Shown here: piece after piece, positions 6,880 through 18,018 of the stretch | Layout: each line of letters starts with the position of its first letter | Numbering within the stretch: the first letter of the stretch is position 1 | Position numbers and translations under genes: made by a program | The notes under the pieces: generated by a model | What the model saw: the letters and a program-made list of their open reading frames with translations, nothing else | Database searches by the model: none | What the model was told of the DNA's origin: nothing | DNA from: Pseudonocardia acidicola | Lineage (GTDB): Bacteria > Actinomycetota > Actinomycetes > Mycobacteriales > Pseudonocardiaceae | NCBI RefSeq assembly: GCF_012911935.1 | Contig: NZ_JAAXLA010000026.1 | Coordinates: 1 to 64,000 of the forward strand | Length of the DNA stretch: 64,000 nucleotides | Direction: 5' to 3'

Positions 6880-6937
6880 TTTGTCTGCCCTCCTGCTGCC
6901 GGATGGCCACCAAGGCTACCCCGCTCACGGGTCCTGG

Positions 6938-8311
6938 CTAGTCCAATCGGTCGGGAAGGGCGCGGGGTGTACGGCGGGGGCGTCGTTCGCCGGACTTGGT
7001 GCGCTGGGTGGGCGGGGAAGCGTCCAGGTGCGACCCCATCCGGACGGCGTTGCGTCCGGCACGCTTGGCTGCGTAGAGGGCTGAGTCAGCGACCTCGAGC
7101 AGCTGTCGAAGCTCGGCGCCGTCCTGCGGGAAGGTTGCTCCGCCGACCGAGACGCTGATGTCGTTGACGGTCAGGGGCCCGTCAGGCGTCGGGATCTCAA
7201 CGGCGAGGTGGTCGATCCGTTGACGGATCCGTTCGGCTACGAAGTGCAGCTCAGAGCGCTCCCCGTTAGGTCGGTCGCCCAGCCCGAGCCCGGGTAGCAG
7301 GACGACGAACTCCTCGCCGCCGAATCGACCGACGAGATCGTTATCGCGGACCTCGGCTCGCAACGCTCCCGCGATGGCAGAGAGCACCTGGTCGCCGGCG
7401 AGATGTCCGTGCCGATCGTTGATGGCCTTGAAGTGGTCGAGATCGATGATGAGGACCGCGGCGCTCGCGGCGGTGCGCTGCGCACGTCGCAGAGCTCGCG
7501 CCGCCTGGTTGTGCCAGGCCGCCGCGTTGAGCAATCCCGTCTTGCTATCGGTATTCGCCTGCTCTTCCAGCTGGCGAACGAGGATCGCCCGGTGCAGGAC
7601 GAGGAGTGGCGGAAGAACCAGCGCAGCGTGGAAGGGATTTCCGGACAGCAGCATTCCAGCGGCCAGTGCACCCATCGAGAGCGTGGCCACCTCGAGCATG
7701 ACCTCGTCACCCCGACCGAGAACGTGCAGGAACTTCGCGTCGGAGCTGAGCACGATCACCCCCACGATCAACGACGTGTTGATGACGGTGTAGGCGAGCA
7801 ACGCCAGGACGATGGTGAAGAAGCCTCTGTTGCTGCTGAACAGCTCGTCGCGGCCGAGGTAGCCGAGAACGGCTGATGCTGCGTGAACGGCGAGCAGGAT
7901 CGTCGACGCACTGAACACCTGCCGGTACGTCGGTGTCTTCGCCGGGCGCAGGACTCGGAAGTACAGATGCCCGTAGATGATCAGCACTACTGCACTTGCC
8001 AGTAGCGGGGGCAGCAGTAGCGCCGCAGCGAAGGTCCACACCGAGCTGAGGTCGATGTGGCGGGTCTCTGTCACTCGGCGTCGGATCCGCTCGACTCCGA
8101 GTGAGACCTCGGTGTGCACGACTCCGGCCGCGGCCAGCACGCCCAAGATCCATAAATATTGATCGACATCGTGGATCGCGAACAGGTCGGCGACCAGAAC
8201 GCCCGCCGTGAGCAGTTCAACCGAAAGGACCGCAGTCAGCAGCCGCGAGGGTAGGGACCACACCGCCCAACGGGTGATCCAGTTCTGACTACGCGGTGAC
8301 GGCGGCATCAT
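6938..8311 (-). CDS. Membrane-bound diguanylate cyclase (GGDEF)
   Basis: A 457-residue protein starting at ATG 8311 behind GGGGGAGG. About six membrane segments fill residues 20-240, forming an N-terminal sensor region with no clear named domain. A GGDEF domain follows from about 254 to 425 (TDSKTGLLN, IDLDHFKAIND, GGEEF at 331-335). The active site is intact and the product-inhibition site RxxD is present (RDND at 322-325), so c-di-GMP synthesis is expected at the membrane. The C-terminus is a basic tail. A promoter-like GTGACA-N17-TACGAT lies upstream. The small exported NWNWGV peptide follows in the same operon, and the NWxW micro-ORFs lie divergently. A peptide-sensing role is speculation. 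Confidence 0.9.
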   Translation of the reverse strand: MMPPSPRSQNWITRWAVWSLPSRLLTAVLSVELLTAGVLVADLFAIHDVDQYLWILGVLAAAGVVHTEVSLGVERIRRRVTETRHIDLSSVWTFAAALLLPPLLASAVVLIIYGHLYFRVLRPAKTPTYRQVFSASTILLAVHAASAVLGYLGRDELFSSNRGFFTIVLALLAYTVINTSLIVGVIVLSSDAKFLHVLGRGDEVMLEVATLSMGALAAGMLLSGNPFHAALVLPPLLVLHRAILVRQLEEQANTDSKTGLLNAAAWHNQAARALRRAQRTAASAAVLIIDLDHFKAINDRHGHLAGDQVLSAIAGALRAEVRDNDLVGRFGGEEFVVLLPGLGLGDRPNGERSELHFVAERIRQRIDHLAVEIPTPDGPLTVNDISVSVGGATFPQDGAELRQLLEVADSALYAAKRAGRNAVRMGSHLDASPPTQRTKSGERRPRRTPRALPDRLD

Positions 8312-8635
8312 TTGATACCTCCCCCGTCCCCGCCGCGTTCATCCTCATAGGTACCCCCAACTAGACGGATCGTAGCCGGGAGACGACCAGCTGTCACAGG
8401 TCCGACGGGGAGGCGGCGCCTGGCAGCGACGAAAGGTCAGGATGACACGGGTGGCCGTGACGCTGAGTGATCTCGGACCGGACTACCGGCTTGCACGTCG
8501 AGCAGACCCTCAGCCACCCACCTGCTGCCGTGATCACTCTCCCGACTGAGACCCTGTAGGGGCTTGTGACTCTCCACACGACGGCCGAGCTGCCAGGCGA
8601 TGGCGGCCGACAGGTGCTCCGGGAAGGAGGTACCG
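8312..8635. other. Divergent intergenic region, cyclase to micro-ORF array
   Basis: These 324 bases separate the cyclase start from the first plus-strand micro-ORF. The minus-strand side holds the predicted cyclase promoter. On the plus strand I find no convincing -35/-10 pair for the array and no c-di-GMP riboswitch consensus. A minus-strand short frame beginning MRMNAAG near 8350 overlaps the cyclase start but has no further support. Confidence 0.4.
8369..8397 (-). promoter_or_regulatory. Sigma70-type promoter candidate for cyclase-peptide operon
   Basis: Reading the minus strand, GTGACA (8397-8392) and TACGAT (8374-8369) are separated by exactly 17 bases, close to the vegetative actinomycete consensus. 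The cyclase ATG lies 58 bases beyond the -10 box. Spacing and position fit, but one hexamer pair in GC-rich DNA is weak evidence. Confidence 0.4.
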
Positions 8636-8659
8636 GTGCGTAATTGGGTTTGGAACTGA
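8636..8659 (+). CDS. Micro-ORF 1 of NWxW array (M-R-N-W-V-W-N)
   Basis: GTG at 8636 follows AAGGAGG with a 5-base spacer, one of the strongest ribosome binding sites in the window. The frame encodes seven residues, VRNWVWN read with initiator Met, then TGA. Codons differ from the other copies (CGT, AAT, GTT), yet the R-N-W-x-W pattern is kept. Far below annotation size limits; the case rests on the five-fold repetition. Confidence 0.7.
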   Translation: MRNWVWN

Positions 8660-8712
8660 GCGAATCCGCCGCGCGATTGAGCGGGCGACACATTCACCGA
8701 GAGGAGACATTC

Positions 8713-8736
8713 ATGCGGAACTGGATTTGGAACTGA
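8713..8736 (+). CDS. Micro-ORF 2 of NWxW array (M-R-N-W-I-W-N)
   Basis: ATG at 8713 follows GAGAGGAGA. It encodes MRNWIWN and TGA. With copy 1 it shares the final Asn that copies 3-5 lack. The spacer before it shows no clear similarity to other spacers, while the peptide is conserved. Confidence 0.7.
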   Translation: MRNWIWN

Positions 8737-8795
8737 GCGAGATCTGACTCGTTCCGAGCATGATCGTGGATTTCGACCCCTGAGGAGGGTTAGCC

Positions 8796-8816
8796 GTGCG
8801 CAACTGGACTTGGTGA
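8796..8816 (+). CDS. Micro-ORF 3 of NWxW array (M-R-N-W-T-W)
   Basis: GTG at 8796 follows GAGGAGGG. Six codons encode VRNWTW (initiator Met), then TGA. It uses ACT for Thr where copies 4 and 5 use ACC, and GTG where they use ATG, so it is a diverged copy that keeps the same peptide. Confidence 0.7.
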   Translation: MRNWTW

Positions 8817-8861
8817 ACAGCGGCTGAATTGCCCAATCGACCCGACTCGAGAGGAACACCC

Positions 8862-8882
8862 ATGCGCAACTGGACCTGGTGA
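8862..8882 (+). CDS. Micro-ORF 4 of NWxW array (M-R-N-W-T-W)
   Basis: ATG at 8862 follows CGAGAGGAACACCC. It encodes MRNWTW and TGA, identical in DNA to copy 5. The upstream spacer (ATCGACCCGAC, then CGAGAGGA) also resembles that of copy 5, so these two are a recent duplication. Confidence 0.7.
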   Translation: MRNWTW

Positions 8883-8935
8883 ACCCCAGCCGACCCACCC
8901 GATCGACCCGACCCGACCCGAGAGGAGCAACACCC

Positions 8936-8956
8936 ATGCGCAACTGGACCTGGTGA
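8936..8956 (+). CDS. Micro-ORF 5 of NWxW array (M-R-N-W-T-W)
   Basis: ATG at 8936 follows CGAGAGGAGCAACACCC. It encodes MRNWTW and TGA at 8954-8956. The array ends here: one base later begins the stop codon of a convergent transporter remnant, so no intact plus-strand gene follows. That argues against a leader-peptide role for a downstream gene. Confidence 0.7.
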   Translation: MRNWTW

Positions 8957-8957
8957 A

Positions 8958-9503
8958 TCAGTCATGAGTGGACGGAGCACAGCCTTGGCGGGTGTGAGTC
9001 CTCGCGGTAGTCCCGAACGTGGTGATGATGGCGATCAACGCCCCGGCCGCGCCGCTGAGCGCGACGGTCGTCGGAGCGCCGAGTGCCTCCGCCACTGGTG
9101 CCGCGATGAGCAGGGCGAGGCCCTGGGAGGCTACGAGGCTTGCGGTAGCAACGCCGAGGGCTTGACCTCGGACCTCGGTCGGGGTCGCGCGCACGAAGCT
9201 GGCCTGGGTCTGCAGCCGGTAGGCCGTCGAGCCGGCTCCGGTGAGGGCCCAGAGGGCGACCGATGTGGCGAGGCCGGGGGCCAGCAGGCAGGCGACGAGT
9301 GGGACGCCGGACATGGCCGCCGGCGGCCTGATCAAGCGCGGCCTTCGCTCATCGGAGACGAACCGTGTGAACGCCCAGGCACCGACGACACCGCCGGCGG
9401 GCATGGAGGCCATCAGGGCGGCGACGGCCACCGGTCCCCCGCCGTGGGCTGCGGCGTAGGGCGCCGCGAGTCCCTCGGGGACGACGTAGAACCCCTTTGC
9501 GCT
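8958..9503 (-). pseudogene. C-terminal half of an MFS transporter
   Basis: The open frame 9503-8958 begins after an in-frame TAG (9506-9504) and reads KGFYVVPEGLAAPYA, then several membrane segments (LVACLLAPGLATSVALWALT, QALGVATASLVASQGLALLI, GAAGALIAIITTFGTTA). The segment VRATPTEVRGQALG is a typical MFS loop. About 180 residues match the C-terminal half; the first six helices are missing. The upstream sequence belongs to a different gene remnant. Confidence 0.65.
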
Positions 9504-9561
9504 CTACAACCCTTCCTCGTGGCCGGGGCCGCACGATGGGCCCGGGCAGGGCCTCGGCGAT

Positions 9562-9861
9562 CTACCTCCTCCACCTGATCGTCGCCGGTCTCCGCGCTGA
9601 TGCCGCGTCTGCAGCCTCGTCTCCGGGTCCGCCTGCACGCGTTATGGACCGCGCGAAGGCCACTGCGGCGAGAATGCGGGTCTCCACGGTGCTCGACACA
9701 GAGGAGCCGTGGCCGGCGTCGTAGCGCAGCACCTCAGGCTCACCACCAGCGCGCTCGAGTGCCTGCAGGTAGTTGTCGATCTGCCGGGCCGGGCAGCGGG
9801 GGTCGTTGCGTCCTGCGAGCACGAGGATCGGCGCCGTGACCTGGTCGACGTACGTTGATGC
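9562..9861 (-). pseudogene. C-terminal fragment of S9 (prolyl oligopeptidase-like) peptidase
   Basis: The fragment encodes YVDQVTAPILVLAGRNDPRC, QIDNYLQALERAGGEPEVLR and YDAGHGSSVSS, the conserved C-terminal part of S9-family alpha/beta hydrolases with the catalytic Asp (GRND) and His (AGHG). Upstream sequence in this frame loses similarity, so the beta-propeller and nucleophile Ser are gone. It ends in TAG at 9562. Together with the neighbouring MFS stump it marks a decayed block. Confidence 0.6.
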
Positions 9862-10193
9862 GAGTCCCCAGCATCTGCCCCGCCGTTTCCCCTGTCGCGG
9901 GACAGCTTCGACGCCGGCCGGGCCCAGCTCGGCGTGTTCGGCAGGTACACCGCTGTGCGCTGCTCCCGTCCACGGTCGGTGCAGGCTGGCCCCCGGCCGT
10001 GGCGGCGGGACGGCGTGTCGGCCGTCTCGGCGGCCGGCCATGGCCAGGCACCGTGCCACCGGGGTTGAACGGCTCGGGCATTATCTGCACCCGCGGTGGT
10101 GTGGCTGGTCGGCAGCCGACGGCACCGACCGGGGTGAGGTCGACCTCGGCCCCTGGCCAGTGCGGGGCCGGACTCGGGAACGGAGAAGGGTGG
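9862..10193. other. Intergenic or decayed sequence
   Basis: About 330 bases upstream of the acyl-CoA-dehydrogenase-like gene. Open frames on both strands lack recognisable motifs and are probably scrambled remains of the S9 peptidase locus. The promoter of the plus-strand gene at 10194 should lie in its right end. Confidence 0.4.
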
Positions 10194-11210
10194 ATGTCGC
10201 TGGTTGCCGCTGAACTGCCGGTTGCCGAGATTCGAGGCTTCTTCGGCCCTCGCGCAGCCGCGGTGGACCGCTGCGAGGTCGACGTCCGCGACGGGCTGCG
10301 CTTTCTGGCCGAACGCGGCCTGCTCGGGCATCCCGAGCTGCGGGTCAGCTTCGAGCTGATCAGACTGGTGGCCCGCTCGGATCTGGCGTCGGCGTTCAGC
10401 TTGTGGGCGCACACGATGGTGGTGCAGTGCGTGGCGGCCTCGCCGTCACCGCGGATGCGGGCGACGGCCGATCAGCTGCGGCGCGCGACGGTGTGGGGCT
10501 CGACGGCGATGGCACCGGCGATCAAACACATGGCCGGGCTGGGTGAGCTGCCGGTGACGTTCCGCCGCGACGGCGACATCCTCGTCCTGGACGGTCGGAT
10601 CCCGTGGGCGTCGAACCTGTTCGGCCGCGACCTGGTCGTGGCGCTGGCGGCCAGGGGGGAGGATGGCGAGCGGCTGGTGCTCGCGGTGACCGGCGAGAAT
10701 CCCGGGCTGTCGCTGGGCGGCCCGCAGGACCTGCTGGCGATGAGCGCCACCGCCTCCTCCGACCTCGTCCTGCGCGGGGCCCGCGTCGAGCCGCAGGCGG
10801 TGATCAGCACCGATTTCGTCGGCTACCTGAAGGCGATGAAGCCGCGCCTGCTCATCCTGCAGACCGCGTTCTGCCTCGGGCTGGCCGCCGAGGCGCTGAC
10901 CGCCGCCGAGGCGTGGCCGGCGCGGACGATGGCCGGCTACCACGACGATCACGCAGCCCTGGCGCAGCAGTTCGCCGACCTTGACCAGCGCGCGGCCGCG
11001 TTGGTGGAGGCCCTCGCGCCGGTGCGCGAGGTGGTGCAGACCCGGCTGCAGGCCGGGCGGCTGGCGCAGGCCGCCGTCGAACTGGAGCTACGGATCGCCG
11101 GCGGGGCCGGGTTCGCCGCCGGAAGCCCCACCGCGCGGCGCTACCGCGAGGCCGCCTTCCTGCCGGTTCAGACCCCGACCGAAGGGCAGCTGCAGGCCGA
11201 GCTCCGCTGA
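10194..11210 (+). CDS. Acyl-CoA-dehydrogenase-like flavoprotein
   Basis: A 338-residue protein; ATG at 10194 behind GAGAAGGG. It has the acyl-CoA dehydrogenase layout: an N-terminal helical part (AELPVAEIRGFFGPRAAAVD, RFLAERGLLGHPELR), a middle beta domain (DGRIPWASNLFGRDLVVALA, GENPGLSLGG) and a C-terminal helical domain (FCLGLAAEALTAAEAW, ELELRIAGGAGFAAGSPTAR). It is shorter than canonical enzymes (about 380) and the catalytic Glu is not obvious. Similar proteins are annotated only as acyl-CoA dehydrogenase family. Substrate unknown; neighbours are stumps, so context gives no help. Confidence 0.6.
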   Translation: MSLVAAELPVAEIRGFFGPRAAAVDRCEVDVRDGLRFLAERGLLGHPELRVSFELIRLVARSDLASAFSLWAHTMVVQCVAASPSPRMRATADQLRRATVWGSTAMAPAIKHMAGLGELPVTFRRDGDILVLDGRIPWASNLFGRDLVVALAARGEDGERLVLAVTGENPGLSLGGPQDLLAMSATASSDLVLRGARVEPQAVISTDFVGYLKAMKPRLLILQTAFCLGLAAEALTAAEAWPARTMAGYHDDHAALAQQFADLDQRAAALVEALAPVREVVQTRLQAGRLAQAAVELELRIAGGAGFAAGSPTARRYREAAFLPVQTPTEGQLQAELR

Positions 11211-13893: not shown

Positions 13894-14913
13894 CTAGATC
13901 AGGACCTGGCCGACTTCACACTGGTTCTCGCCCTGCGGAATCCGAGATTCTCCCTTTGCCTCCGAGGCCGCGTAGCGTCCGGACTGCTCGGCCCAGTCGT
14001 AGTCTCCGCGTACGACGCTACGGAGTGCGTCGCCCACGTATCGGCGCACGCTCTCCCGTTCCCGGTCATTCAGTCCCAGTGACTCGTACAGTGATACCAG
14101 AGAAGCCTCGAGACCGCAGAAGCGTTCAAGGCGTTCGCGGACCATCTCGCGCATGAACTCGATGACCGCAGGACGACTGCACCGCTGTTCACGTTCGAGG
14201 ATGAGCACAAGATTGTGCGGATCCCCCCACGATTCCTCCTTTTCGACGGAGCAGATGTCGTTGTGGAAGATGACAGCATCACGGGCAAGGGCTCGCATGG
14301 CCGTCAGGTGGTCACTCTTGAAAGCGGCCTCGGGCACCTCGAAGTGACCCACGCGTTCGGCAAGGTCAAGTATCGGGTGAACGCCGATCGAATCGCGTCG
14401 CAGCTGCATGTACTCGTCAGAGGTGAGTATCGTCCCGGACCGCCGATGGACGACTTCGGCGAGAAAGCTGTTCATCAAGACTCTCCAGCTATCGGACGCG
14501 CGGGCACGCCAGGCTGCCGACATTCCCTCGCACGTGCGTCTCCACATATCGGCGAACGCCGCGAGGATCGGTTCCGACGGCGGCACCACGGTAGGGTCGA
14601 GCAACTCGATGAGGGCATCATTGTACTTACGCGCCCGATCGGGATCTTGCCCTGGCAGTGCATCGAATGTGTCATCGTAGATGAAAAACCAGCTCAACTG
14701 GTCCACGGCCAGGTCGAGGTCAGGTCCCTGCGCCGTGGGGTGGAATCGCGCGGCGAGCTCAACGAATCGGGCTCGAGCATGACGCTGGGCAGCCTTCTCG
14801 GTGCAGATCAGACCAAACGAACGCGGCCACTCGAGATGGACCGATTCCGCTCTCTCGAAATCCGGGCTGATGCGCGGCGGGAACGGAATGGGAAGCTGGA
14901 CACCATTGGGCAC
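13894..14913 (-). CDS. Class I terpene synthase
   Basis: A 339-residue bacterial terpene cyclase of normal length; GTG at 14913 behind GGAG. The Asp-rich Mg site is YDDTFD (about residue 78) and the NSE/DTE site is NDICSVEKE, both intact. Flanking patterns LSWFFIYDD and GHFEVPEAAF are typical. Such enzymes ionise farnesyl, geranyl or geranylgeranyl diphosphate and cyclise the cation; product cannot be told. It is the last gene of a minus-strand series idsA-ispH-dxs-ispG, 187 bases after ispG, with a hairpin between. Codon third positions are less GC-rich than its neighbours, which hints at later acquisition. Confidence 0.9.
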   Translation of the reverse strand: MPNGVQLPIPFPPRISPDFERAESVHLEWPRSFGLICTEKAAQRHARARFVELAARFHPTAQGPDLDLAVDQLSWFFIYDDTFDALPGQDPDRARKYNDALIELLDPTVVPPSEPILAAFADMWRRTCEGMSAAWRARASDSWRVLMNSFLAEVVHRRSGTILTSDEYMQLRRDSIGVHPILDLAERVGHFEVPEAAFKSDHLTAMRALARDAVIFHNDICSVEKEESWGDPHNLVLILEREQRCSRPAVIEFMREMVRERLERFCGLEASLVSLYESLGLNDRERESVRRYVGDALRSVVRGDYDWAEQSGRYAASEAKGESRIPQGENQCEVGQVLI

Positions 14914-14984
14914 GTCTTACTCCAGACAGTGAGCGGGAAGGAATGATTACCAATCGAGGGCGAGCGGCCATATCTCATCGTGAG

Positions 14985-15015
14985 GCGCAGGTTCTCTCGC
15001 TGCGGAGACCTGCGC
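14985..15015. terminator. Hairpin between ispG and terpene synthase
   Basis: GCGCAGGT (14985-14992) pairs with ACCTGCGC (15008-15015) around a 15-base loop. It could attenuate transcription running from ispG into the terpene synthase. No T-tract is seen on the minus strand. Confidence 0.3.
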
Positions 15016-15100
15016 TGTGTCCTGCTCGCTCGACGTGCTGCGCAGGCCTGAGTCGGTAACCGCGGTCAGGCGGTCACCACTGTCGGCGGGTAGTCAGAGT

Positions 15101-16216
15101 TCACCGTGAATCCGAGTTCACGTGGTCGGTGAGGCGGAGAGCCTCCTCGATCAGGGTCTCGACGATGCGGTGTTCGGGGACGGTTTTCACGATGGCGCCT
15201 TTGACGAAGATCTGCCCCTTGCCGTTGCCGCTGGAGACGCCGAGGTCGGCTTCGCGGGCCTCGCCGGGGCCGTTGACCACGCAGCCCATGACCGCGACAC
15301 GGAGGGGGTGGGGGAAGTCCGCGAAGGCGGCTTGGACTTGCCGGGTGAGTGCGTAGACGTCGACCTGGGCGCGGCCGCAGCTGGGGCAGGAGACGATCTC
15401 GAGCCGGCGGGGGCGCAGGCCGAGGGATTCGAGGATCTGGGCGCCGGTCGTGACCTCCTCCACGGGGGGTGCGGAGAGGGAGACGCGGATGGTGTCGCCG
15501 ATGCCCTCGTTCAGGAGGATGGCGAAGGCGACGGCGGATTTGATCGTGCCTTGCGGCGGGGGGCCGGCTTCGGTGACGCCGAGATGGAGCGGGTAGTCAC
15601 AGCGTTCGGCGAGCCGCCGGTAGGCGTCGACCATGACGAGGGGGTCATGGTGTTTGACGGAGATTTTGATGTCGGTGAAGCCGTGTTCTTCGAACAGGGA
15701 GCATTCCCACAGCGCGGACTCGACGAGGGCTTCGGGGGTGGCCTTGCCGTATTTGTCGAGGAGGCGCTTGTCCAGGGACCCGGCGTTGACTCCGATGCGG
15801 ATGGGGACGCTTGCGGCCGCGGCGGCTGTGGCGATCTCGCGAACCTTGTCGTCGAATTTCTTGATGTTGCCGGGGTTCACGCGGACGGCGGCGCAGCCGG
15901 CACCGATGGCCTGGAAGACGTATTTGGGTTGGAAGTGGATGTCGGCGATGACCGGGATCGGTGATTTGCGGGCGATGGTGGGGAGGGCGTCGGCGTCGTC
16001 CTGGCTGGGGACGGCGACCCGGACGATCTGGCAGCCGGCCGCGGTGAGTTCGGCGATCTGTTGCAGGGTGGCGTCGACGTTCGCGGTGGGGGTGGTGGTC
16101 ATGGATTGCACGCTGACCGGGGCGCCGCCGCCGACCGGCACGCCACCGACGTCGATCCGACGGGAGCGGCGCCGGGCCCGGGGCACCGTGGGCTCGCCCA
16201 ACGTTACGGCGGTCAT
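15101..16216 (-). CDS. ispG: 4-hydroxy-3-methylbut-2-enyl diphosphate synthase
   Basis: A 371-residue IspG (GcpE), the penultimate MEP-pathway enzyme, which converts MEcPP to HMBPP with a [4Fe-4S] cluster. It has [47 protein letters not shown] and [17 protein letters not shown]. The cluster ligands lie in [11 protein letters not shown] and [13 protein letters not shown] at 16216 overlaps the dxs stop by one base (TGATG); GTG at 16219 is the alternative. Tight coupling to dxs and ispH indicates one operon that feeds the downstream terpene synthase. Confidence 0.95.
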
Positions 16217-18018
16217 CACACGGCTCCGTTCGTCGTGAGCAGATCTGAGGGTCTGGTCGTCGTGAGGACTTTCAGGATCGTGTCGGCGATCGCTGTGCCG
16301 GTCAGGCCGTGCGCGGCGAGCAGATCGGCGCGACGGCCGGCATCGAGGAACGCCGGCGGCAGACCGAGGGTGTGCACGGGCGTGTCGACGTCGGTGTCCG
16401 TGCAGGCCGTGGCGAGAGCGGCACCCAGTCCGCCGGTGCGGACGCCGTCCTCGACGGTGACCGCGAGCTCGTGGCGGGCGGCCAGGTGCACCAACGCCGG
16501 ATTGACCGGAAGCGCCCAGCGCGGGTCGATCACGGTGACCCCGATCCCGTGCTCGTCGAGTCGGCGGGCAGCGTCCAGGCAGCTCGGGGCGAGTGCGCCG
16601 TAGGAGACGATCAGCACGTCCAGCGATCTGCGCCGGCCGCGGTGCAGGACGTCGAGGCCGTCCATCCGGGTGACCGCTGCGATGTCAGCGTCCGCGCCGG
16701 CCTTGGGGTACCGCACGACGGTGGGGCCGGCGGTGACCGACACCGCCTCGCGCAGCAGTTCCCGCAGGGTGGCGGGGTCGCGGGGGGCGGCCAGGCGCAG
16801 ACCCGGTACCGCACCGAGGATGACCGGGTCCCACATCCCGTGGTGGCTCGGTCCGTCGGGGCCGGTGATGCCGGCGCGGTCGAGTACCAGGGTGACCGGC
16901 AGCCGGTGCAGAGCGAGGTCCATGAGGAGTTGGTCGAAGGCGCGGTTGAGGAACGTGGCGTAGATGGCGACGACCGGGTGCAGGCCCGCCATGGCCAGCC
17001 CCGCGGCGGAGGCGACGGCGTGCTGTTCGGCGATGCCGACATCGAAGAACCGGCGGGGGAATCGCCGCCCGAACGGGGCCAGCCCGGTGGGGCCGGGCAT
17101 CGCGGCGGTGATCGCCACGATGTCCTCGCGTTCGGCCCCGATCGCGCAGATCTCCTCGGCGAAGACGTCCGTCCAGGTCCGCGGCCCGGGTGGGGCCGCG
17201 CCGGTGGCGGGGTCGAGAACGCCGACGGCGTGCATGAGCTCGGCGGTCTCGGCCTCGGCGGGGGCGTAGCCGCGGCCCTTGCGGGTGACGCAGTGCACCA
17301 CCACGGTCCGGCCCATCGAACGTGCGTGCCGTAGTGCCCGTTCGCACGCGCTGATGTCGTGGCCGTCGACGGGCCCCACATAGGCCAGACCCAGGTCGGT
17401 GAACACGTTGCGGGCCCCGCGGCCGCTGTCGCGGAGTGCGCTCAGGTGGTGGGCGAGGCCGCCTGCCGTGGGGGCGTAGGAGCGGCCGTTGTCGTTGACG
17501 ACGATGACGACGGGCCGGTTCGGCGCACCGCCGAGGTTGTTCAGCGCCTCCCAGGCCATGCCGCCGGTGAGCGCCCCGTCCCCGACCACGGCGACCACCG
17601 CCCGATCAGCCTGCCGGGTGAGCCGGTAGGCCTTCGCCAGGCCGTCGGCGTAGGCCAGCGCCGCGGAGGCGTGGGAGTTCTCGATGTGGTCGTGGACCGA
17701 CTCGGCCCGGCTCGGGTAGCCGGACAGGCCGCCAGGCTGCCGCAGCGCATCGAAACCCTTGCGCCGCCCGGTGAGGATCTTGTGGACGTACGTCTGGTGG
17801 CCGGTGTCGAACACGATCGTGTCCTGCGGGGAGTCGAACACCCGGTGCAGCGCGATGGTCAGCTCCACCATGCCCAGATTCGGGCCCAGGTGGCCACCGG
17901 CCGCGCAGACCTTCTCGACCAGGAAGCGTCGGATCTGCTGCGCCAGCACCGGCAACTGGTGCGGGGCCAGCCGGCGCAGATCGGCTGGGTCGTGCACCTT
18001 CTCGAGCAGGGTGCTCAT
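16216..18018 (-). CDS. dxs: 1-deoxy-D-xylulose-5-phosphate synthase
   Basis: A 600-residue DXS, slightly short for the family (620-640). It catalyses the first MEP step from pyruvate and glyceraldehyde 3-phosphate. Visible are [33 protein letters not shown], the ThDP motif [18 protein letters not shown] and the Pyr-domain [20 protein letters not shown] with its Glu. ATG at 18018 overlaps the ispH stop by 4 bases. Since dxs controls flux, a cluster copy would boost supply for the terpene synthase; whether another dxs exists elsewhere cannot be seen here. Confidence 0.95.

Follow-up and report, generated by a model that had tools for sequence, protein, structure and literature searches.

The window (the whole stretch of 64,000 nucleotides [nt] of Pseudonocardia acidicola DNA that was analyzed, on contig C84) contains five tandem open reading frames (ORFs) of six or seven codons beside a divergent gene for a membrane diguanylate cyclase, which raises the question of whether genes this small are real and, if so, what their peptides do. 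The first-pass annotation had read them as five tandem plus-strand units, each with its own ribosome binding site, and we confirmed that all five micro-ORFs are real: they lie on the plus strand, all end in TGA, and each is preceded by a GGAG/GAGG-type Shine-Dalgarno (SD) site 5 to 8 nt upstream (Table 1; peptides are written with an initiator Met, GTG starts included). The micro-ORF pattern had five matches in the window versus 0.01 expected from dinucleotide-preserving shuffles, and none of 100 shuffles reached five. Across the whole 7.16-Mb genome, the strict pattern matched the five array units and one isolated position on contig C99, and a reversed control pattern had no match. The isolated sixth match (C99:57958-57975, minus strand; locus L006; GTGCGGAACTGGGGCTGG) may be due to chance.

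TABLE 1 Features around the micro-ORF array of the window
Feature	Position	Strand	Description
Membrane diguanylate cyclase	6938..8311	-	Multihelix N-terminal domain with a predicted ECF S-component fold and only weak similarity to MASE9, followed by a GGDEF domain whose GGEEF motif is intact
Sigma-70-like promoter match 5' of cyclase gene	8369..8397	-	Consensus match only
Micro-ORF 1	8636..8659	+	GTG start, M-R-N-W-V-W-N, TGA; SD GGAGG at 8626-8630
Micro-ORF 2	8713..8736	+	ATG start, M-R-N-W-I-W-N, TGA; SD AGGAG at 8702-8706
Micro-ORF 3	8796..8816	+	GTG start, M-R-N-W-T-W, TGA; SD AGGAGG at 8783-8788
Micro-ORF 4	8862..8882	+	ATG start, M-R-N-W-T-W, TGA; SD AGAGGA at 8850-8855
Micro-ORF 5	8936..8956	+	ATG start, M-R-N-W-T-W, TGA; SD AGAGGAG at 8921-8927
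MFS exporter-type gene remnant	9087..9494	-	tblastn: only residues 249-384 of 415 found

Within the window array, identity was 0.29 between spacers and 0.86 between amino acids; by codon position it was 0.92 and 0.88 at positions 1 and 2 and 0.45 at degenerate third positions. Since spacer identity is far below residue identity, the constraint acts on the peptide, in agreement with the earlier proposal that the peptide is the conserved entity. The accompanying claim of spacer divergence also held, with the correction that five units leave four spacers, not five, and that units 3 to 5 still have partly similar flanks. The first unit begins 325 bp past the start of the divergent cyclase gene. 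A plasmid blastn search with the array region, an Rfam scan of window positions 6900 to 10500, and a simple promoter scan for the array itself returned no match.

Are such arrays peculiar to this locus? A DNA pattern search of 199 genomes (the window's own and its relatives) yielded 17 clusters, the window's included, in which two to seven exact matches lie in tandem, so that the motif arrays recur in related genomes. Between the two Trp residues, nearly all units of any one array carry the same residue (N, H, G, T, or E), the exceptions being the window array (V/I/T) and one R in L036; this residue varies from array to array, even inside one genome. We retrieved 20 neighborhoods, comprising the 16 clusters other than the window's and four single matches, one of which (L054) was rejected as a chance match because a long ORF contains the pattern. 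A homologue of the window cyclase was found at all 16 other clusters and at the three remaining singles; with the window, this amounts to 17 of 17 clusters, which makes the GGDEF gene the constant neighbor that the first-pass annotation had suggested looking for. The homologous part of the cyclase starts 205 to 499 bp from the first unit in 17 of 19 neighborhoods, and in the two exceptions transposase genes have been inserted: in L041 they lie between cyclase and array, and in L036 they lie inside the cyclase gene as well as next to it. Even so, both loci retain six or seven micro-ORFs that are intact. Tail-to-tail pairs of this cyclase type were also seen beside one array (L038, L042, L044, L046, and L048 to L051).

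Beyond the cyclase, no gene was common to most of the 20 neighborhoods. The gene next to the array is convergent in nine of them, including the window's, and codirectional in 11; eight of these 11 have an orthologous DXS gene downstream on the same strand (all Pseudonocardia loci, with RNWGW, RNWTW, or RNWEW arrays). In the window, a terpene synthase gene followed by IspG/GcpE (15101-16219) and DXS (16216-18018) genes occupies positions 13894 to 18018 of the minus strand.

The cyclase gives the second handle on the locus. PF00990 (GGDEF) was matched by all 57 family members. G331-G332-E333-E334-F335 is invariant; R322 and D325 are invariant too, with a spacing that we take to be that of an I-site. 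The predicted model had a mean pLDDT of 90 for the whole protein and 91 for the membrane domain alone. For the latter, Foldseek placed RibU first (E value of 0.065, probability of 1.00), and the top 16 entries of VIA-align 2 were all ECF S-components or CbiM (Z of 13.3 to 9.9), led by 4hzu_S (Z of 13.3, rmsd of 3.9, 158 aligned residues), with the next entries at Z of 8.0 and then 6.9. A Z of about 13 can be common for helical bundles, so the argument lies in the clean gap after 16 rows and not in the Z value. The membrane domain is thus predicted to have the six-helix ECF S-component fold, a resemblance of a predicted model and not proof of homology. MASE9 (PF20972) was matched weakly by seven of the 57 members (E value of ≤0.01), and PF07694 was not among the four families that they matched.

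Collecting loci by their cyclase revealed a wider micro-gene family. We assembled 56 loci from named genomes and 40 that were handpicked from family-genome matches, including the second locus of the window's own genome, and applied a motif-free detector (two SD-preceded ORFs of 4 to 8 codons, 40 to 200 bp apart, sharing at least four C-terminal residues) to those 95 loci in which 400 bp or more lay upstream of the cyclase. On the divergent strand, 49 of the 95 loci had a de novo array (duplicates are still counted; see below), versus 0/95 on the other strand and 0/95 after local shuffling. Downstream of the cyclases, the detector found 1/56: in L068, two MRNRGW units adjoin another major facilitator superfamily (MFS) match. 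L068 is the same place as L038, and its MRNRGW pair lies near the second cyclase. In other families of the class, arrays were present at 10 of 19 loci, versus 0/19 on the other strand. Pooled, arrays occurred at 59 of 114 cyclase loci, with 293 units, or at 56 of 108 with duplicates removed. A further 20 loci had one SD-preceded micro-ORF of similar type (singles picked by eye), and 32 of the 108 distinct loci had no array and no such single micro-ORF either. At about nine loci, the array is 1.7 to 2.1 kb away, past another cyclase-sized gap.

The arrays consist of 2 to 23 complete genes of 5 to 8 codons with SD sites, each array encoding one nearly constant peptide, and their hosts are Pseudonocardia, other Pseudonocardiaceae, and other families of the class. 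The longest are MRNKSW arrays of 18 to 23 units, with S and H variants, in L073, L088 (P. dioxanivorans CB1190), and L096. Other multi-unit peptides include MRNHNW (13), MRNRTWI (7), MRNRAW (8), MRDNTWT (8), MRDNNWN (8), and MRANSWD (5), and further arrays encode MRNWxW, MRSWDW, MRSRDN, TNRDN, MRTREH, MRDKIW, MRHTSWS, and, in Actinophytocola, MTNKDW/MNKDW. The RNWxW motif therefore holds as a real array peptide, but as a family definition it is too narrow, being one branch of a wider family. In many arrays W, K, H, or R is paired with the constant Trp, and Trp is absent from several (NRDN, SRDN, and TREH). The residue after Met is variable within some arrays (R/S/A/T/C), and in L129 and L135 the N termini vary in length; because the C-terminal core is steadier than the N terminus, the sequences suggest that the core is probably the part that is recognized. 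Paralogous modules of one genome differ in these residues, with RNWTW and RNKSW in the window's genome and RNWNW and RNWGW in G013. The second module of the window's genome (L122; contig C110, 156000-162000) comprises an MFS gene, three MRNKSW-type units, and two cyclases of this type.

The cyclase-first search was far more productive than a broad R-x-W-x-W-type pattern, which was run against 397 genomes of the order and 396 of the phylum. Among the matches listed, there was one close pair outside Pseudonocardia (MRSWDW in G091), which proved real, and the others look like scattered singles. A membrane-domain profile matched 16 of 118 genomes of the class at 1e-25 and, in a sample of 149 genomes of the phylum at an E value of ≤1e-22, only the window's own genome.

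Of the 107 loci that extend 1.5 kb or more upstream, 46 have an MFS gene 5' of the cyclase gene in the same orientation (six duplicate loci are still counted in this figure and in the 49/95 for arrays). These MFS proteins are 42 to 57% identical to that of L041, and where such a locus has an array, the array lies in the interval between the MFS and cyclase genes on the opposite strand. De novo arrays were found in 35 of the 46 loci with the MFS gene and 19 of the 61 without it (Fisher P value of 5e-6; the loci are not independent), and the 19 include, by the 2.5-kb limit, at least L082 and L105, in which the MFS gene lies just outside, as well as L128, in which it is on the other strand. Six of the 11 MFS loci without a de novo array have a single candidate micro-ORF. 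L118, L120, L150, L151, and L153 have the MFS gene and the cyclase and no convincing micro-ORF. Two MFS proteins were tested; both matched MFS_1, and the MFS_3 cutoff was passed by one and just missed by the other. Their nearest NCBIfam models were an H+ antiporter family, EntS, and Tap, none at cutoff, and the protein is predicted to be of the efflux type. Many RNWxW loci, the window's included, lack it or have a broken copy.

Conservation at the level of the peptide extends to the wider family. In 29 arrays with 213 units, for which a start and a stop were required of every unit, mean pairwise identity was 0.37 for spacers, 0.53 for SD sites, and 0.965 for amino acids, with 0.96 and 0.97 at codon positions 1 and 2 and 0.87 at degenerate third positions. 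The spacers are thus far less conserved than the ORFs, the comparison by which the first-pass annotation had proposed to distinguish genes from a plain DNA repeat. Cores were also sought without requiring a start or stop, although they were drawn from arrays first found with both and so are not fully independent: of 223 occurrences, 215 had a start at the expected codon, seven had it one codon earlier, and one (L082) had none; a stop followed within two codons in all 223, and an SD-like site preceded 221. In the MRNKSW arrays, the Ser codons AGC and TCC are mixed (10/13 in L073, 13/8 in L088, and also 12/7 and 5/3), two base differences that leave the residue unchanged, while the Asn, Lys, and Trp codons beside them are fixed.

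We then compared peptide distances with those of the neighboring proteins in 49 of 56 loci (L139, L143, L148, L152, L158, L169, and L173 were left out). Left out beforehand were near-identical loci (such as L070, L075, L093, L096, L157, and L166), duplicates, weak singles, and loci with a second cyclase between the array and the query cyclase (such as L079, L080, L082, L083, L087, L090, L094, and L112). Peptide distance correlated more strongly with membrane-domain distance (r of 0.559) than with GGDEF distance (0.392). The partial Mantel correlation with the membrane domain given GGDEF was 0.455 (P = 0.0005), versus −0.155 (P = 0.99) with GGDEF given the membrane domain, figures to be read with the caution that such tests can be liberal and that the membrane domain evolves faster than GGDEF and may simply be the better clock. 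The partial correlation was 0.521 in Pseudonocardia (n = 24) and 0.352 in the others (n = 25), and 0.424 and 0.382 for the two halves of the membrane domain. In the 27 of the 49 loci with a long MFS match, it was 0.348 (P = 0.0005) given the linked MFS protein, versus 0.027 (P = 0.36) for peptide and MFS given the membrane domain, a control that only partly removes the faster-clock caveat (mean distance, 0.485 versus 0.637). A first run on 30 of 57 loci, the other 27 having been left out because the retrieved range cut their cyclases short, agreed with this result; between the runs, L123 and L134 were removed, L170 was added, and the peptide N termini of L108 and L117 were rewritten. With these caveats, peptide sequence appears to track the membrane domain and not the GGDEF domain or the MFS protein.

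Taken together, we consider it probable that the array, an exporter, and a cyclic di-GMP (c-di-GMP)-making receptor form a compact peptide-signaling module. The array would be its signal gene: every micro-ORF would be translated straight into a peptide of 5 to 8 residues with no leader, and many copies would raise peptide output. The neighboring efflux-type MFS protein, decayed at the window locus and present at the second locus of the genome, would export the peptide. The S-component-fold membrane domain predicted for the divergent cyclase would then bind the peptide, and binding would set GGDEF activity, so that the c-di-GMP level would report on the peptide. Where a genome has paralogous modules with different peptide residues, each would have its own receptor. 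Translation in the cell, export, binding, and the direction of the effect are inferred. S-components bind ligands within the membrane domain. Counting against the module, these ligands are vitamins or metals, which a hexapeptide exceeds in size; no protease is linked to the arrays; the MFS gene is missing or damaged at many RNWxW loci; and 32 distinct loci have the cyclase and no recognizable peptide gene.

The arrays look like a previously unrecognized peptide signaling system. No description of the micro-ORF family was found in the open-licence papers searched, in line with the initial remark that such repeated peptides belong to no familiar family. Their genes are about six codons long, beyond the design of gene callers, with a product that stays nearly constant across genera and families while the surrounding DNA drifts. 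Their peptides are candidate ligands for a membrane diguanylate cyclase type that is widespread, and the two together are a candidate signaling circuit of actinomycetes, bacteria whose development is controlled by c-di-GMP. We give about even odds to a reading in which these modules are a new mode of bacterial communication: peptides about four to seven residues long and without a leader would each be the entire product of a micro-gene present in up to 23 copies, an adjacent MFS pump would export them, and membrane receptors with the S-component fold of vitamin transporters would read them and respond with c-di-GMP synthesis, in several private dialects per genome across a class of actinomycetes.

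Peptide quorum sensing in Firmicutes includes the Rap-Phr, Agr, and ComX systems. As there, a small peptide gene adjoins a presumed receptor gene (at 56 of the 108 distinct loci), and one genome may hold several pair-specific paralogous pairs; unlike there, the arrays show no visible precursor, leader, or processing peptidase, the receptor candidate is a membrane diguanylate cyclase, and the hosts are actinomycetes. The cyclases share with MASE9 a membrane domain carried on diguanylate cyclases, but the window protein is under the Pfam cutoff (20.0 versus 24.3 bits). An S-component-type membrane fold acting as a receptor is known from 5TMR sensors, some of which are fused to GGDEF/EAL (Partipilo and Slotboom 2024, PMC11109136); the predicted fold joined to GGDEF here is similar, whereas 5TMR sensors belong to PF07694, and the part of that article available to us describes no peptide partner for them.

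Biarylitide precursors, of the type MxYxx, are the nearest relatives in size and differ in partner enzyme, sequence, and context. The biarylitide gene bytA is an 18-bp, five-codon complete gene of a kind missed by automatic detection, and multicopy precursors of this type occur in Lysinibacillus, according to the available part of PMC13417212. The micro-ORFs are likewise tiny complete genes, part of the family has aromatic residues two apart, and the sequences of 5 to 8 codons differ from MxYxx; moreover, no P450 gene is linked in the window's genome, several arrays have no Trp, copies reach 23, and the constant partner is a diguanylate cyclase. An analogous reading would make the micro-ORFs ultrashort precursors of ribosomally synthesized and posttranslationally modified peptides (RiPPs), in which an enzyme encoded elsewhere joins side chains (for example, [W/K/H/R]-x-W), the MFS protein exports the product, and the cyclase regulates or senses it. 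Biarylitides are P450-cross-linked from five-residue precursors, with up to six copies reported in the same source, and such cross-linking would suit both the Trp partner residues seen in many arrays and the many P450 genes elsewhere in the window's genome. We nevertheless regard this reading as unlikely: none of the 27 PF00067 (P450) or 18 PF04055 (radical-SAM) matches of the genome is on C84 or C110, the contigs of its two arrays, which bears out the first impression that neither enzyme is nearby; no gene but the cyclase recurs in most of the 20 neighborhoods; and several arrays have no Trp. Rather unlikely, too, is a peptide that stays in the cell and serves the cyclase as an intrinsic regulator, by binding to it on the inner side or in the membrane. 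It draws on the same linkage and covariation data, and the absence of a signal sequence and of a processing gene and the frequent lack of an adjacent MFS gene would suit it; the efflux-type MFS gene that 46 of 107 loci have beside the cyclase and array argues against it, as does the fact that known S-component-fold domains take their ligands from outside.

Attenuators and minigenes are short ORFs of a similar kind, and translation itself could be the function of the micro-ORFs, as a leader peptide, a tRNA-sequestering minigene, or a ribosome-stalling device. Trp codons before TGA (219 of 223 stops) recall such elements, and the same-strand DXS gene downstream of eight orthologous arrays would provide a target; a leader role at these eight loci alone is possible. 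A leader-attenuator should have a regulated same-strand gene directly downstream, but 9 of the 20 neighborhoods and the 46 MFS loci have a convergent gene next to the array, so that there is no common downstream target. The variable residue is also nearly uniform within an array and different between arrays, some of which have no Trp, and as a general account we judge this reading quite improbable. A plain DNA or RNA element, such as an array of binding sites that is open by accident, is strongly disfavored and scarcely credible: it could account for degenerate third positions more conserved than spacers and for an Arg codon that is mostly CGC, but not readily for the in-frame starts, stops, and SD sites around the 223 cores or the AGC/TCC exchanges, and Rfam is blank around the window array. 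After testing, the DNA-repeat, attenuator, and P450/radical-SAM RiPP readings were thus ranked below the signaling module.

Selection on the peptide is not the only force on these genes. Arg before the core (156 cases) is encoded by CGC in 131, CGT in 18, and CGG in 7, compared with 43%, 7%, and 41% of Arg codons in the long genes of the loci. Because third positions (0.87) are more conserved than spacers and this Arg is mostly CGC, some nucleotide-level, translational-efficiency, or RNA-level constraint acts as well. TGA, which ends 85% of long genes, is preferred more strongly still by the micro-ORFs (219 of 223), which also avoid CGG at Arg codon 2.
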